A stretch of DNA of 48,374 nucleotides from positions 1 to 48,374 of the forward strand of contig CADBNZ010000035.1 of assembly GCA_902796155.1 (NCBI GenBank). Reading direction: 5' to 3'. Source of the DNA: an uncultured Pseudomonadota bacterium (lineage in GTDB: Bacteria > Pseudomonadota > Alphaproteobacteria > UBA3830). The translations under genes were made by a program, and so were the position numbers. The stretch's first letter is position 1, and every line of letters begins with the position of its first letter. Positions 3,523 to 26,992 of the stretch are shown here, one piece after another. Below the pieces are notes generated by a model. That model made no database searches. It was not told the DNA's origin and saw only the letters and a list, made by a program, of their open reading frames with translations.

Positions 3523-5076
3523 TCACTTGCGTTTCGATGAAAATCTTGGGCTTATGACGCCAATATCTCTTCCCGAAAATGCAACCTTATCCAGATTGAA
3601 TTTTCCGCCTGAGTATCGGAAGCTTTCCTTCCCTTTCAGCTCATAGAATTGGTCAAATGCCCAATTTTTCGGCAGTTTTTGAGCTATATTGCCGTAATAA
3701 AGCGGTGTCGCATCGCCCACGAAACTAAATGTTGCGTAACCATAATCCGAAACGCTCGTGCAAACCAAGCGATCGCCATAAACTCCAACGCGATATCCTG
3801 CCCTTATCACGATTTTGCTTACTTCGCTGAAATATGGAATGATTCTTTTTGATATTTGCTCTTCCGATGGGTCGCAATCTACTGAAAAATATATGACAGT
3901 TCCTCTTGGAAGCTCCAGTTTTCGTGCCGCAGCAATCGCAATCGCTGCATCTTTTCTTCCTTGTGCTGCCGAAAACGATTTTATGTCATGTCCATCTTCT
4001 TCTTGAAAAATCGGGAATAATCTCAGTCCTGCGGCGCTTATATCGTAAAATTCTTGTTTGCTGATGTATTTCGGCACACGCTTTCCTTTATAGCCTTTTA
4101 TACTGCCAGTTAGATATCGTCCTACATATCTATAACCAGCTGCATATAAAGCTCGCGCTCCATCGGGAGAAAGAGGCAACCAGCAATCGCACGCGAGAGC
4201 AGGACGTCCGGTGTCTCCCGTACTGCACAAAAGCGCCTTGATTGTGCGCATGTTAGCGACTCCCGTCTTTGGCAGTCCCACATATCCTTGAAATTGACGT
4301 ACTGCAGTAACCGTATTTGTATCATAAACACCGTTGACTCTTGCTCTGAAACCATTGGCATACAGAGCGCTTTGTAAAATGTATACCAAACGCCCTTTCA
4401 GACCTGGATAGAGAGTCGGACAGGCCTCTGTTGTCTCATCCCCAAAGCGTTTATCTATTTTTTCGCAACCGATCTCAACTTGAAGCGCACGAATAAGGTT
4501 AAAGTGTGTTCTGTGTGAATATTTTCCGTTAGTAGGAATTATTGCGCAGCGACGCGAATAGTTTCTGTTCAAATATTGCTGTATACGACGCATATTTTCG
4601 TCGCCGTCGTTTGTTCTGATATATTCCCCTCGTCCGACAATTGCAAGCATAAACAGCGGGGTTACTTGGGAATTTTTGATTACATTGCCTCCAAGCGCGT
4701 CTTTTTTAAACTCCATGACCGCTGAAGCTGTGCTTTTATCGAATTTCCCTGAAATAGATCCGACATAATATCCTTTGTACATAAGCGCACATTGAAGCAG
4801 ACTTACGCAATTATTTTTCGTGTCCGTACTGCCGACCTCAAGAATAGGATAGAACGAGTTTTGATCGACAACATCATCTCGCCCTCTTATTCCTGTTTCT
4901 ATGCGCAAAGCATAGGCGAAAAGATCTTCGTTTCGGAGAGAAGTTTTATGACCGTATGTTCTGTTAAGCCAACTAAGAGCCCTGTTTTTGCTCTGTTGCT
5001 GGCATTCCGAGCATGAAAAAATCAGCAGGAATAGGAAAAACAGCGTCTTTTTCAGGATGACTTTTAGCATTCGCAT
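3523..5076 (-). CDS. Secreted lysin-like protein: PG-binding domains plus DUF1906 (GH25-like) domain
   Basis: A 517-residue exported protein. The N-terminus is hydrophobic (KKTLFFLFLLIFSCSE) and may be a lipoprotein signal ending at the cysteine of IFSC, though phenylalanine at that place is atypical. Two clear peptidoglycan-binding-type repeats follow (about 78-140 and 225-295; VNGVYDTNTVTAVRQFQG is diagnostic). A related segment lies between them. The C-terminal half (about 298-510) matches the DUF1906 / Rv2525c-like glycoside-hydrolase-like fold: ACDCWLPLSPDGA, GYRYVGRYL, GTVIYFSVDCDPSEEQI. Family members are linked to cell-wall binding or cleavage, but no activity is proven here. The architecture is more familiar from Gram-positive secreted lysins, so transfer is possible. 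It is the last gene of a minus-strand series after clpP. Confidence 0.82.
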   Translation of the reverse strand: MRMLKVILKKTLFFLFLLIFSCSECQQQSKNRALSWLNRTYGHKTSLRNEDLFAYALRIETGIRGRDDVVDQNSFYPILEVGSTDTKNNCVSLLQCALMYKGYYVGSISGKFDKSTASAVMEFKKDALGGNVIKNSQVTPLFMLAIVGRGEYIRTNDGDENMRRIQQYLNRNYSRRCAIIPTNGKYSHRTHFNLIRALQVEIGCEKIDKRFGDETTEACPTLYPGLKGRLVYILQSALYANGFRARVNGVYDTNTVTAVRQFQGYVGLPKTGVANMRTIKALLCSTGDTGRPALACDCWLPLSPDGARALYAAGYRYVGRYLTGSIKGYKGKRVPKYISKQEFYDISAAGLRLFPIFQEEDGHDIKSFSAAQGRKDAAIAIAAARKLELPRGTVIYFSVDCDPSEEQISKRIIPYFSEVSKIVIRAGYRVGVYGDRLVCTSVSDYGYATFSFVGDATPLYYGNIAQKLPKNWAFDQFYELKGKESFRYSGGKFNLDKVAFSGRDIGVISPRFSSKRK

Positions 5077-8085: not shown

Positions 8086-9354
8086 CTAGCTGTAAAGAGG
8101 AAACGCTTTGCACAACTCCAGTGTCTCGCTCCTTACCTTGGATTTTACGGCATCATATCCATCTTTTCCGTAATTTGAAAGTATTTCGTAAATCAAATCA
8201 GCGATTTTGATAAATTCAGCAGTACGCATCCCCCGAGTTGTCATTGCCGCAGAACCGATTCTGATCCCCGAAGCCTGAGATGGCGGCAATTTATCAAACG
8301 GAATAGCGTTCTTGTTGCAAGTTATTCCTGACTCTTCCAGCTCTGTTTCTGCGATTTTGCCTGTGATAGATAATGCTGTCAAATCGACAATAGATAAATG
8401 GCACTCTGTCCCACCCGAAACGATATTCAGTCCATGTTCTTTAAGACGATTTGCCATTGCTATGGAATTATCCAGAACATTCTTTGCATAAGTCTTGAAC
8501 TCTGGGCGTAATGCTTTTCCAAATGCCACTGCTTTTGCCGCAATAGAATGCATTTGCGGCCCTCCCTGAACACCAGGGAATACAGCACTGTTGATTTTTT
8601 TCGCAAGTTTCTCATCGTTCGTAAGAATAATGCCACCTCGAGGACCTCGCAGTGTTTTATGAGTCGTGGAAGTCACTACATGAGCATATTCCATTGGCGA
8701 CGGATACAGTCCCGCAACAATCAATCCCGCATAATGAGCTACGTCTGCGAATAAATACGCCCCGACCGAATCGGCAATTTCGCGAAATTTTTTAAAATCG
8801 ATTTTTCTTGAATAAGCAGAAGCGCCAGCGATGATTACTTTAGGTTTATGCTCGTGTGCCAATCGCTCAACCTGCTCATAATCAATGCAACCATCGGCAT
8901 TTAGACCATATTCGACTGAATTAAACCACTTCCCCGAAACAGTTGGCTTTGCACCATGCGTAAGATGCCCTCCCATAGCCAATCCCATGCCAAGAATCGT
9001 ATCTCCAGGAACCGCAAGAGCGTACAAAACGGAAACATTCGCTTGAGCCCCCGAATGCGGCTGAACATTCGCAAACTTACAGTTGAACAGCTTGCAAATG
9101 CGCTCTATAGCCAATTTCTCAGCGACATCAACAAAACCGCAACCACCATAGTAGCGTTTATCAGGATAACCTTCGGCATATTTATTGGTCATTACGCAAC
9201 CTATAGCAGCAAGAACTTCTTTTGAAACAAAATTCTCTGAGGCAATTAATTCAATTTGAGTTTGTTGCCTATTTAATTCGTTCTTTATCGCTCCGAATAC
9301 TTCTTTATCTGTAATTTCAGATTCATTTAAAAGATATCCGTTAAATTCTGCCAT
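8086..9354 (-). CDS. glyA: Serine hydroxymethyltransferase
   Basis: PLP enzyme that converts serine and tetrahydrofolate to glycine and methylene-THF, the main entry to one-carbon units. At 422 residues it is full length. The PLP lysine lies in [25 protein letters not shown] and [15 protein letters not shown] are the conserved N-terminal blocks. It starts 16 bases after rpiB and precedes nusB. Functionally it connects with the glycine-responsive symporter locus and with folE/folA elsewhere in the window. Confidence 0.97.
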
Positions 9355-23600: not shown

Positions 23601-24968
23601 TTATTTTTTATTATTCGACAGCGATTGTTTTGTTTCTTTAATTATCTCTTTTCGCAAAGCAATTAACGCGACAATATTCGGGATGGCCATTAATCCGATA
23701 ACGATATCCGCCACTATAAATGCTGTTTTTATGTTCAAGAAAGGTCCGATGACGACAAAAAACATAAACAACATCCTATATGGTGTTATAGCTTTGGTGT
23801 TAAAAACGTACTGTACGCATTTCTCTCCGTAGTAGTTCCATCCGATTATTGTTGTAAACGCAAAAAACAGGATACTGATATTAACAATATGCTTTCCTAA
23901 TGCCGGAACATGCAATCCTGCTCCAAAGGCGTGTGCGGTCAACAATGTTTCAGGAATAGTGCAGGTATGGCTTAATATTTGCGTTTCTTCCGCAGTTGTA
24001 ACCAGCACAAGTCCTGTTATTAAGCATATTATTATCGAGAGAAACGCTCCAATCATGCATATCAATCCTTGCTCTGTCGGATGTCTGACTTTTGCTGCGG
24101 CAGAAGCTATAGCTGCACTTCCCAGTCCTGCTTCGTGACAAAATACTCCTCGACTCATTCCGATTTGTATAGTGTGGATAATGCAAGCTCCGATTCCACC
24201 TCCAACCATAGCTTGAGGAGCAAAGGCTTCATGAATAATCAAATATAAGGCATGCGGAATAGCGTCTATTCTAAGGAAAAGTATAATAATAGCTACTCCT
24301 ATGTAAAATATACTCATGATAGGAACGACTTTTTCCGCTATTTCCGCAATCCTGTGAATCCCTCCGAAAATTACCATCGCAACAATAGCGGCAAGCACAA
24401 CCGAGGTTACATAAGTTGGTATTCCGAATGATGTAGCTGCCGCATTTATCGAGTTCGTTTGCGCCAGTGTTCCTATTCCTATAAGTGCGACTCCGACTCC
24501 GAAAATGGCGAACATTTTCGCTAATAATTTACTTCCTAATCCTTTTTCTATGTAATACATTGGTCCCCCGGCTATTTTTTTATCGCTTCCGATGATGCGA
24601 TACTTTATAGCCAAAAATCCTTCGCAATACTTTGTAGCCAAACTGAAAAAAGAGGATAAGATCAGCCAAAATAGCGTGCCTACTCCTCCTACTGAAATTG
24701 CAACAGCGATTCCAACAATGTTTCCTGTTCCCAAAGTTGCGGATAAAGCCGTACATAACGATGCAAAATTCGATATGTCTCCCATTATACTGATATTTTC
24801 AGATCGTTTTTTGGAGTTGAGAATGTACCCAAACGCTCTTTTTATATGGCGGATCTGTACAAATTTTAATTTGAATGAAAAATAAACTCCAACGCCGAAA
24901 AGAGCGATTAATAAAGGCAGACTCCAAACAAAATCGCAAATTGATTTAACAAAATTTTCCATATTCAT
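23601..24968 (-). CDS. AGCS sodium:alanine/glycine symporter, downstream copy
   Basis: A 455-residue Na+/amino-acid symporter of the AGCS (AgcS/DagA) family with about 11 membrane helices. Family blocks: ATLGTGNIVGIAVAIS, KIAGGPMYYIEKGLG, SRGVFCHEAGLGSAAIA. It is the second of two tandem genes and is closely similar over its whole length to the upstream copy. Its start overlaps the stop of the upstream copy by 23 bases. Both lie downstream of a glycine riboswitch, which supports glycine (and probably alanine) as the substrate. The start is the ATG at 24968 or the one two codons later. Confidence 0.93.
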   Translation of the reverse strand: MNMENFVKSICDFVWSLPLLIALFGVGVYFSFKLKFVQIRHIKRAFGYILNSKKRSENISIMGDISNFASLCTALSATLGTGNIVGIAVAISVGGVGTLFWLILSSFFSLATKYCEGFLAIKYRIIGSDKKIAGGPMYYIEKGLGSKLLAKMFAIFGVGVALIGIGTLAQTNSINAAATSFGIPTYVTSVVLAAIVAMVIFGGIHRIAEIAEKVVPIMSIFYIGVAIIILFLRIDAIPHALYLIIHEAFAPQAMVGGGIGACIIHTIQIGMSRGVFCHEAGLGSAAIASAAAKVRHPTEQGLICMIGAFLSIIICLITGLVLVTTAEETQILSHTCTIPETLLTAHAFGAGLHVPALGKHIVNISILFFAFTTIIGWNYYGEKCVQYVFNTKAITPYRMLFMFFVVIGPFLNIKTAFIVADIVIGLMAIPNIVALIALRKEIIKETKQSLSNNKK

Positions 24969-26355
24969 CGTTATTCTCCGACATAATTGAGTCTATAACG
25001 AGTGTTTTATTCGTTTCCTCGATTATTTCTCTTCTCAGGGCAATTATCGCGATAATATTCGGAATAGCCATTAAGCCGATTACAATATCCGCTAAAATAA
25101 ATGCTGTTTTTATGTTCAAAAAAGGTCCGACAACGACAAAGAATATATATAATACTTTGTACGGCATTATTGCTTTTGTACTGAAAGCATATTGCACGCA
25201 TTTTTCTCCGTAGTAATTCCAACCGATTATGCTCGTGAATGCGAAAAACAATATGCTGGTGTTAACAATATGATTTCCTAATTGAGGAAGATGTAATCCT
25301 AATCCAAAAGCGTGCGCAGTTAATAGTGTCTCTGGAATGTTATAACCGCGACTTAATATTTGCGTTTCTTCCGCAGTTGTAATCAAAACAAGTCCTGTTA
25401 TTAAGCATATAACAATCGAAAGAAACGCTCCAATCATGCATATTAATCCTTGCTCTGTCGGATTTTTGACTTTTGCTGCAGCTGAAGCTATAGCCGCACT
25501 TCCTAGCCCCGCTTCGTGGCAAAATATTCCGCGACTCACTCCGATTTGAATCGTATGTATAATGCAGGCACCAATTCCTCCTCCAACTACAGCTTGAGGA
25601 GCAAATGCTTCGTGAACAATCAAATATAAGGCATTAGGAATAGTCTCTATTTTCAGAGCCAGTATAATGATAGCAGCTCCTATATAAAGTACACTCATAA
25701 TAGGAACGACTTTTTCTGCTATTTCAGCAATTCTGTGAATCCCTCCGAAAGTTACCATCGCAACGATAACAGTGAGCACAATCGAAGTTACGTAAATTGG
25801 TACTCCGAATGATGTTGCAGCAGCTGCTATAGAATTAGTTTGCACTAACGTTCCTGTTCCTACTAGAGCGACTATTGCTCCGAGAACGGCAAACATTTTC
25901 GCTAATAATTTGCTTCCCAAGCCCTTTTCTATGTAATACATTGGTCCTCCGGCCATTTTTTTGTCGCTTCTGATGATGCGATATTTGATGGCCAGAAGCC
26001 CTTCGCAATATTTTGTGGCTAAACTGAAAAATGACGATACAATTAACCAAAATAACGTTCCGGCTCCTCCAACAGAAACAGCAACGGCTATCCCAACGAT
26101 ATTTCCCGTGCCCAATGTAGCGGCCAATGCTGTGCACAACGATGCAAAATTCGATATGTCTCCTATTATGCTGCCATTTTCGGCTAGTTTTTTGGAATTA
26201 AGAATATGCCTGCATGCTCTTTTGGCGTGACGAATTTGTAAAAAATCTAACTTAAACGAGAAATAAACTCCGACACCAAAAAGAGCGATTAATAAAGGAA
26301 AACTCCAAATAAAATCGCAAATTACTTTAGCAATATTTTCTATATCCATATCCAT
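24946..26355 (-). CDS. AGCS sodium:alanine/glycine symporter, upstream copy
   Basis: A 469-residue AGCS symporter, paralogue of the next gene, with the same blocks (ATLGTGNIVGIAVAVS, KMAGGPMYYIEKGLG, SRGIFCHEAGLGSAAIA). It is the first gene after the glycine riboswitch. Its C-terminus is about 14 residues longer than that of its neighbour. These extra residues (IMSENNDEYGKFC) are encoded by the duplicated ribosome-binding leader of the downstream copy, so the original stop seems to have been lost at the duplication joint. The GGAG of TCGGAGAAT upstream of the ATG is a good ribosome site. Confidence 0.94.
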   Translation of the reverse strand: MDMDIENIAKVICDFIWSFPLLIALFGVGVYFSFKLDFLQIRHAKRACRHILNSKKLAENGSIIGDISNFASLCTALAATLGTGNIVGIAVAVSVGGAGTLFWLIVSSFFSLATKYCEGLLAIKYRIIRSDKKMAGGPMYYIEKGLGSKLLAKMFAVLGAIVALVGTGTLVQTNSIAAAATSFGVPIYVTSIVLTVIVAMVTFGGIHRIAEIAEKVVPIMSVLYIGAAIIILALKIETIPNALYLIVHEAFAPQAVVGGGIGACIIHTIQIGVSRGIFCHEAGLGSAAIASAAAKVKNPTEQGLICMIGAFLSIVICLITGLVLITTAEETQILSRGYNIPETLLTAHAFGLGLHLPQLGNHIVNTSILFFAFTSIIGWNYYGEKCVQYAFSTKAIMPYKVLYIFFVVVGPFLNIKTAFILADIVIGLMAIPNIIAIIALRREIIEETNKTLVIDSIMSENNDEYGKFC

Positions 26356-26458
26356 CGCAATTCTCCGACATAACCATATCCGACATAACCATAATTAATG
26401 GGAGAACTCGATTGATATCGCTAATGGAAAACGTAGTATTTAAGATTCTTTCTAACAT
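26327..26458 (-). other. Possible 43-codon leader reading frame before the symporters
   Basis: On the minus strand an ATG at 26458 opens 43 codons (MLERILNTTFSISD..) that end inside the first symporter gene, overlapping its start by 29 bases. A GAAGG sequence lies 8-9 bases upstream. Its last codons (MSENCDGYGYRKYC) parallel the tail of the upstream symporter where it runs into the downstream one. It may be translated and coupled, or be just the footprint of the leader. No function is recognised. Confidence 0.3.
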
Positions 26459-26530
26459 AGCCTAATCCTTCGTGTTTTTACCTAAAAGTGTTCGATTCAA
26501 ATGAATCTTGCTTTTACGGTGCTCAAAACG

Positions 26531-26627
26531 AGTCTCTCCAAAGTCTTGTCCAGCAACGATACTTTTGCCTGAGATTTTTAACCCTTCGGCGGATCAATCA
26601 AGATTTCCCTTTATGACCTCTCTCCCG
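26531..26627 (-). promoter_or_regulatory. Glycine riboswitch (single gcvT-type aptamer)
   Basis: The minus strand shows, in the right order, the conserved parts of a glycine aptamer: CGGGAGAG at the 5' side, GCCGAAGGGTTAAAAA, TCTCAGGCAAAA, then TTGCTGGACAAGACT and the closing GGAGAGAC. The closing GGAGAG can pair with an upstream CTCT-type partner only weakly, as in many gcvT aptamers. One aptamer is seen rather than a tandem. It lies about 175 bases upstream of two AGCS symporters, a known target class. After it, a small hairpin (GATTCATTTGAATC, about 26493-26506) and the downstream leader may form the switch. Whether it turns expression on or off is not decided by the sequence. Confidence 0.88.
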
Positions 26628-26650
26628 ATGCCTTCATCCAATTTTGCGGT

Positions 26651-26679
26651 ATTCTATAATCGATGGGCGTATTAGTCAA
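26651..26679 (-). promoter_or_regulatory. Sigma70-type promoter of the riboswitch-symporter operon
   Basis: The minus strand has TTGACT (26679-26674), a 17-base spacer and TAGAAT (26656-26651). Each box is five of six to consensus. The start would be about 26644, just upstream of the glycine aptamer. The remainder up to rlmN (26680-26992) is A/T-rich, and I see nothing further in it. Confidence 0.75.
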
Positions 26680-26992
26680 TAGATTAATTTTTTTGTAACC
26701 TGTTAAAAGAATATTTGCTCAATCTTTACAAAAAAGAAGGAAGTGGAAAAAGAAATCATAGTTTTTTCTCATTAAATTCTGTTATACCGTTTTCTGATTT
26801 CACCATATATATACATTATATTAAAGATGCAGGTAAATAATGATAAGATACTTTTAATATTTGTAATTTTATAATATTTCTTTAGAGAAAAAAAACAAAA
26901 GCGCAATAAAGAAATATAAATTACTTCCCGATGATGAATAATATTGTGATAGTATACAATCCGATTTTTGTTAAAGAAATATAGTAAAATAT

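Follow-up and report, generated by a model that had tools for sequence, protein, structure and literature searches.

What kind of glycine riboswitch lies ahead of two AGCS amino-acid symporter genes on the minus strand of this DNA (the window, 48,374 nucleotides analysed at full length), and how would glycine act through it on these genes? A sequence-only reading had proposed a single aptamer with a short, simple expression platform, behind a strong promoter of its own. The riboswitch itself was borne out: all the conserved blocks named by that reading were found on the minus strand, and a comparison of the window with Rfam gave a significant RF00504 match on this strand at 26637-26547, scoring 48.4 bits against a cut-off of 32 over the full model (1-94; E 5.6e-7 over the window). 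This is the sole match above cut-off in the source genome, which is 1.07 Mb long and 79% complete and has Holosporaceae relatives (among the matches listed, the best 80 of 575); the putative host-dependence of the cell fits such a genome and such relatives. The two genes 3' of the riboswitch are AGCS symporters, as had been proposed, and the last 23 nt of AGCS1 overlap the start of AGCS2. The same DNA carries the glyA that had been noted, a serine hydroxymethyltransferase gene at 8086-9354. The association of glycine riboswitches with AGCS genes had been described as established, in agreement with the AGCS case reported in S. pyogenes (PMC5829553). Elsewhere in the window, a protein encoded at 3523-5076 has NCBIfam matches (spore_SleB and other peptidoglycan-hydrolase names), all below their cut-offs. 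The features of this part of the locus are as follows, the conserved blocks being read from the sequence.

26651..26679 (-), sigma-70-like promoter site TTGACT-17-TAGAAT, 10/12 consensus positions matched
26633..26641 (-), leader TTGGATGAA, 5' half of a presumed leader-linker kink-turn (P0), by eye
26547..26637 (-), glycine aptamer 1, intact, beginning with the conserved block CGGGAGAG
26590-26583 (-), conserved block GCCGAAGG
26573-26562 (-), conserved block CTCAGGCAAAAG
26546..26551 (-), linker GGACAA, 3' half of the presumed P0 kink-turn, by eye
within 26543-26533 (-), conserved block GGAGAGA
24946..26355 (-), AGCS amino-acid symporter 1 (AGCS1), TIGR00835 429.6 bits, cut-off 272.65
23601..24968 (-), AGCS amino-acid symporter 2 (AGCS2), TIGR00835 422.8 bits, same cut-off

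A block resembling TTGGATGAA, with one- or two-base variants, occurs in 9/9 leaders, and so does the GGACAA block (both by eye). As for the promoter, the motif is a good match to the consensus, but a strong promoter is not borne out: when the sequence upstream was shuffled base by base (not by dinucleotides), 42/1000 shuffles equalled the match, and the region 26300-26950 is not enriched in promoter-like sites, with 3 found against 3.2 expected from dinucleotide shuffles.

The second aptamer

The claim that only one aptamer is present did not survive closer analysis. A second homologous aptamer lies directly 3' of the first.

26466..26545 (-), aptamer 2, degenerate (ghost-like)
26539..26543 (-), 5' strand of its P1, CUUUG, forming a duplex with 26472-26468 (-4.8 kcal/mol)
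26468..26472 (-), 3' strand of its P1, CGAAG, overlapping the Shine-Dalgarno of a leader ORF

R1, a covariance model of the second aptamers in eight relatives from the family, made with the window excluded, ranked it first in the window, with 53.2 bits and E 1.6e-10; aptamer 1 came second, at 26.9 bits. The tandem family RF03166, searched at a relaxed threshold, spans 26641-26466 end to end with 65.9 bits (E 1.1e-13), which misses its cut-off of 110, a score that none of the 40 family genomes reaches, and RF00504 at its own cut-off does not report aptamer 2 in the window scan. GGAGAGA, previously assigned to the aptamer that begins with CGGGAGAG, instead starts aptamer 2, and the small hairpin at 26493-26506, previously taken for a simple platform, sits in the P3 arm of aptamer 2. 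Because the hairpin belongs to aptamer 2, the combination of a lone aptamer and a small hairpin platform is ruled out. In place of the short platform stands a decayed aptamer, and the P1 of this aptamer shares bases with the leader ORF's ribosome-binding site.

The decay is asymmetric. Among the positions that do not vary across the eight relatives (a ninth, G061, with a weak match of 24.1 bits, was left out), aptamer 1 keeps 44/44 and aptamer 2 keeps 41/51 (Fisher p 0.0015). The ten lost positions lie mostly in the conserved core, GAAGG / CTCTCAGG, where GAAGGAG has become GTAAAAG and CTCTC has become CTTTT, and in the joining GGACAG region; a UAAAAG/CUUUUA stem replaces the canonical P3 with its internal loop (by eye, on the predicted fold). 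P1 can still form 5/5 pairs, despite two bases of its 3' strand that differ from those of the relatives. The element has two homologous aptamers in direct succession that do not both retain a binding core, and is best read, from its sequence, as a tandem-descended glycine riboswitch with an intact aptamer 1 and a 3' aptamer 2 decayed to a ghost that keeps P1, a layout like that of type-1 singletons.

The relatives put this arrangement in context. RF03166 matched at E 0.01 or better in 10/40 family genomes, the window's included (G061 being the weak match among them), and an AGCS match was found in 16/40; the RNA precedes an AGCS gene in nine of these 16, and aptamer 2 is canonical in all eight relatives. 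Further afield, in Rfam scans that covered 20 and 19 chosen loci, RF00504 precedes AGCS at 15/17 scanned AGCS loci (Clostridia, Photobacterium, Shewanella and others). R1 found nothing at the searched loci of six AGCS-bearing family genomes that have no RNA match (G001, G008, G010, G012, G014 and G020); over 11 loci it gave 2 matches, both in L134 of G032. No riboswitch was found in G033, which has the AGCS pair nearest to that of the window, but this is uninformative because the contig (L029) ends 51 nt before the AGCS start. Some riboswitches of the family show peculiarities of their own. The P2 arm of aptamer 2 has large inserts in G009 (L116, 1585-1770) and G002 (L117, 1296-1524), where aptamer 2 is 184 nt and 228 nt long respectively; in G060, G019 and G034 it measures 78-81 nt. 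The AGCS gene of G034 (G034:C61) has one internal TAG and the AGCS match of G032 (G032:C33) spans only 48 residues; the riboswitches of both genomes look intact.

Compared with known classes, the element shares with tandem glycine riboswitches (the RF00504 pair; RF03166, glycine-GGAnGA) its two aptamers and a downstream AGCS gene, the layout of the eight relatives, but the core of its aptamer 2 is largely lost and its RF03166 score is below cut-off. Type-1 singletons are described as an intact aptamer followed by a 3' ghost aptamer in which P1 is conserved (PMC6944388; PMC9481103). By sequence the window's element likewise has an intact aptamer 1 and a degenerate 3' partner with P1; it differs in its large ghost, with P2 and a P3 arm, and in its place before transporters, rare in print (PMC6944388). 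Since 93% of the type-1 singletons of that survey regulate glycine cleavage genes and 90% of the type-2 singletons regulate transporters (PMC6944388), the position of this type-1-like switch, ahead of transporters, runs counter to the survey's trend. In B. subtilis, mutating the pocket of the second aptamer is reported to have left regulation unharmed (PMC5666159), so a half-decayed switch is plausibly functional. This is a real glycine riboswitch of a known type, and its decayed aptamer 2 before transporters, together with the intervening leader ORF, makes it a modest variant.

The leader ORF and the expression platform

Between the ghost aptamer and AGCS1 lies a short reading frame.

26466..26470 (-), Shine-Dalgarno AAGGA of the leader ORF, 7 nt 5' of its ATG
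26327..26458 (-), leader ORF (uORF), 43 codons, putatively translated
26346..26420 (-), predicted hairpin (-23.8 kcal/mol) that buries the Shine-Dalgarno of AGCS1 (26366-26363) together with part of its start codon

The Shine-Dalgarno that adjoins ghost P1 serves this leader ORF, not AGCS1, and P1 covers three of its five bases. From its ATG at 26458 the leader ORF extends into AGCS1, which it crosses in another frame, and the last base of its stop codon, 26327, is base 29 of AGCS1; an overlapping frame behind its own Shine-Dalgarno is also the arrangement of the ppe2 type. AGCS1 has its own Shine-Dalgarno, GGAG, 7 nt 5' of its ATG, and the hairpin that buries it, situated within the leader ORF, was equalled in only 4/200 shuffles (z -2.06). 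A relay from the leader ORF to AGCS by translational coupling is therefore plausible. At L029, from goat caecum, the same overlapping frame is seen as far as the contig reaches; its Shine-Dalgarno hairpin is shorter and 24/200 shuffles did as well, which makes it weak evidence. There is no sign of a conserved leader peptide, because the frame stays open by chance in 375/5000 shuffles and 5/7 of the codons changed between the window and L029 are non-synonymous (by eye). The leader ORF of the window contains a perfect 15-nt tandem duplication (26364-26393), absent from L029, that keeps the frame.

The origin of this frame was sought in the transporters themselves. Its start corresponds in position to that of AGCS in G019 and G034, and its peptide, ...ISDINRVLPLI..., can be set beside ...ISRIIWGWPLI.... 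Its likeness to AGCS N-termini was equalled in 511/20000 shuffles by profile score (80 different sequences of 108 found, leaving out the window and L029 pairs) and, in pairwise comparisons, in 427/5000 for the best score and 30/5000 for the mean score; these shuffle tests are weak, and we do not claim the leader ORF as a relic of an older AGCS N-terminus. Nor do we claim a relic of an AGCS C-terminus, although the end of the leader ORF resembles the end of AGCS1 (0/5000 shuffles): the likeness is accounted for by an identical stretch of 14 nt that precedes each of the two AGCS starts, together with the overlap with the starts of paralogous genes.

No intrinsic terminator or terminator-like site was found in 26300-26950, which makes translational control likelier. 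The relatives point the same way. In two of the eight (G019 and G034) the 3' strand of P1 is continuous with AGCS's own Shine-Dalgarno; in the remaining six a later stretch, such as TTATCCTCC, can pair with the 3' region of P1 (GAGGATAA) or with the Shine-Dalgarno (GGAGGA), the first pairing becoming GAGGACAA with TTGTCCTC in G025 and the alternative pairing being imperfect in G062 and G060 (all by eye). Both layouts hide the Shine-Dalgarno once P1 forms, so repression by glycine is predicted, and glycine is reported to repress an AGCS gene in S. pyogenes (PMC5829553).

Thermodynamic predictions were less telling. The free-energy fold of the window's leader did not recover the P1 helices of the aptamers, and this leader has no excess of stability over its shuffles (z +0.92). 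Forcing ghost P1 costs 0.7 kcal/mol in a short transcript and 3.9 in a long one. The leader-ORF Shine-Dalgarno is not clearly open when P1 is absent, for AGGAUU/AAUCUU, a weak hairpin of -3.3 kcal/mol, masks it too, and its bases are unpaired with values of 0.07-0.55 in the long transcript. In accessibility runs the Shine-Dalgarno closed clearly, as predicted, in G032 only (0.50 to 0.17); it fell slightly in G009 (0.27 to 0.17) and stayed about the same elsewhere or rose, as in G034, G019 and the window, where the bases held paired include or adjoin the Shine-Dalgarno and where, for the window, the site scored was ATTAGG, not AAGGA. With no clear switching in these partition-function runs except in G032, we infer the sign of regulation from the layouts.

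Origin of the transporter pair and glycine metabolism

The riboswitch and the genes beneath it may not share their history. In a tree of 95 of 114 AGCS sequences (after removal of exact duplicates, of four loci and of rows shorter than 380 residues; one row, L138, sits astray on a very long branch), the window's pair clusters with that of L029 and with Verrucomicrobiota pairs (L030 and L031), with support 100, and stands apart from the riboswitch-bearing AGCS of Holosporaceae. The locus scan found no Rfam riboswitch beside L030 or L031. This grouping suggests that the genes under the riboswitch were exchanged; because the Verrucomicrobiota pairs come from MAGs, it points either to horizontal exchange between gut lineages or to binning errors.

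The glycine cleavage genes gcvT and gcvH are missing in 40/40 family genomes, the window's included, in a search that was positive in 10/14 control genomes. Their absence throughout the family implies that the riboswitch serves uptake there. Glycine riboswitches persist in nine AGCS-bearing family genomes despite this loss.

How glycine may reach the transporters

We regard translational OFF control, relayed to the transporters through translational coupling, as the most likely mode of action; its sign and the coupling are our interpretation of the computed overlaps of P1 with the Shine-Dalgarno and of the leader ORF with AGCS1. In its full form, where aptamer 1 senses glycine, ghost P1 gates the leader ORF and the AGCS pair is turned off through coupling, we judge it to stand evenly between right and wrong. 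Glycine would be bound by aptamer 1, which would dock onto the ghost that keeps P1, P2 and the P3 arm. Docking would stabilize ghost P1 (26543-26539 with 26472-26468) and cover part of the Shine-Dalgarno of the leader ORF. At high glycine the leader ORF would go untranslated, the hairpin would stay shut over the ribosome-binding site of AGCS1, and both AGCS1 and AGCS2 would be off. At low glycine the leader ORF would be translated, the ribosome would open the hairpin, and both transporters would be made by translational coupling.

Several other explanations compete with this OFF relay. The leader ORF could be idle, with glycine acting on the Shine-Dalgarno of AGCS1, on RNA stability or on an unseen termination signal; this is possible, if doubtful. 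AGCS1 does have its own GGAG, an open leader frame is not unusual by the shuffles above, and glycine is reported to have lowered transcript stability in S. pyogenes (PMC5829553), but that GGAG lies about 100 nt past the aptamers in a hairpin of its own, no pairing between it and the aptamers was found, and the region lacks a recognizable terminator. Alternatively, the element may still work as an ordinary tandem riboswitch, its diverged aptamer 2 binding glycine and acting together with the first. The 53.2-bit match and the P1, P2 and P3 stem (UAAAAG with CUUUUA) that can still form speak for it, yet the loss of 10/51 invariant positions, concentrated in the core, and the silence of RF00504 on aptamer 2 make it unlikely.

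We find it equally improbable that the riboswitch is a decaying relic with no regulatory role left, in which the decay began with aptamer 2 and other transporter genes took the place of the original pair. The decay of aptamer 2, the small genome and the placing of the AGCS pair with those of Verrucomicrobiota rather than with the riboswitch-bearing Holosporaceae genes would fit such a relic, but aptamer 1 keeps every invariant position, the promoter-like site is kept and ghost P1 can still form all of its pairs. Slightly less probable still is an ON switch, in which P1 stabilized by glycine would disrupt the downstream hairpin AGGAUU/AAUCUU and raise expression. This hairpin and P1 do have bases in common, and the tandem gcvT switch of B. 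subtilis is described as glycine-induced (PMC5666159); against this, P1 itself covers most of the Shine-Dalgarno, the hairpin is weak, and for an uptake system repression by its own substrate is the expected sign.

The OFF relay by way of the leader ORF has precedents with other ligands. In M. tuberculosis, PPE2 needs translation of the leader uPPE2 under a B12 riboswitch, and this coupling was shown by experiment (PMC11260477). That system likewise has a short ORF overlapping the next gene and is an OFF switch; it belongs to another ligand class and its stop/start overlap is AUGA, whereas in the window the stop codon of the leader ORF occupies bases 27-29 of AGCS1 and coupling is proposed from sequence. 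Synthetic ribo-attenuators combine a riboswitch with a short ORF and with a hairpin that masks the ribosome-binding site of the next gene until translation opens it (PMC5496857). The same parts are present here, the hairpin by prediction; the engineered constructs have a TAATG stop/start overlap and were built on the addA and btuB riboswitches (PMC5496857). Tentatively, the locus may be a natural glycine 'ribo-attenuator', in which, after decay of aptamer 2 to a ghost and replacement of the transporters by a pair from another lineage, the old riboswitch would have stayed in control and one aptamer would drive three coupled reading frames; it is just as tentative that translation of the leader ORF would open the ribosome-binding site of the new genes. 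Among titles of the open-licence literature we found no glycine riboswitch described as acting via a leader ORF, and in that literature no paper on a glycine riboswitch in Holospora, both of which are weak evidence.

Overall, the locus offers a tandem riboswitch in which the core of one aptamer is gone, and its eight intact relatives allow the two states to be compared; the decayed aptamer is the second one, before a transporter, contrary to the trend published for singletons (PMC6944388). If the relay through the leader ORF is true, it would be a natural case of a design found for one B12 riboswitch and in engineered constructs, and it would explain how a riboswitch keeps control over a replaced gene. 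For the family, it means a glycine switch retained for uptake alone in genomes that lack the two glycine cleavage genes tested.
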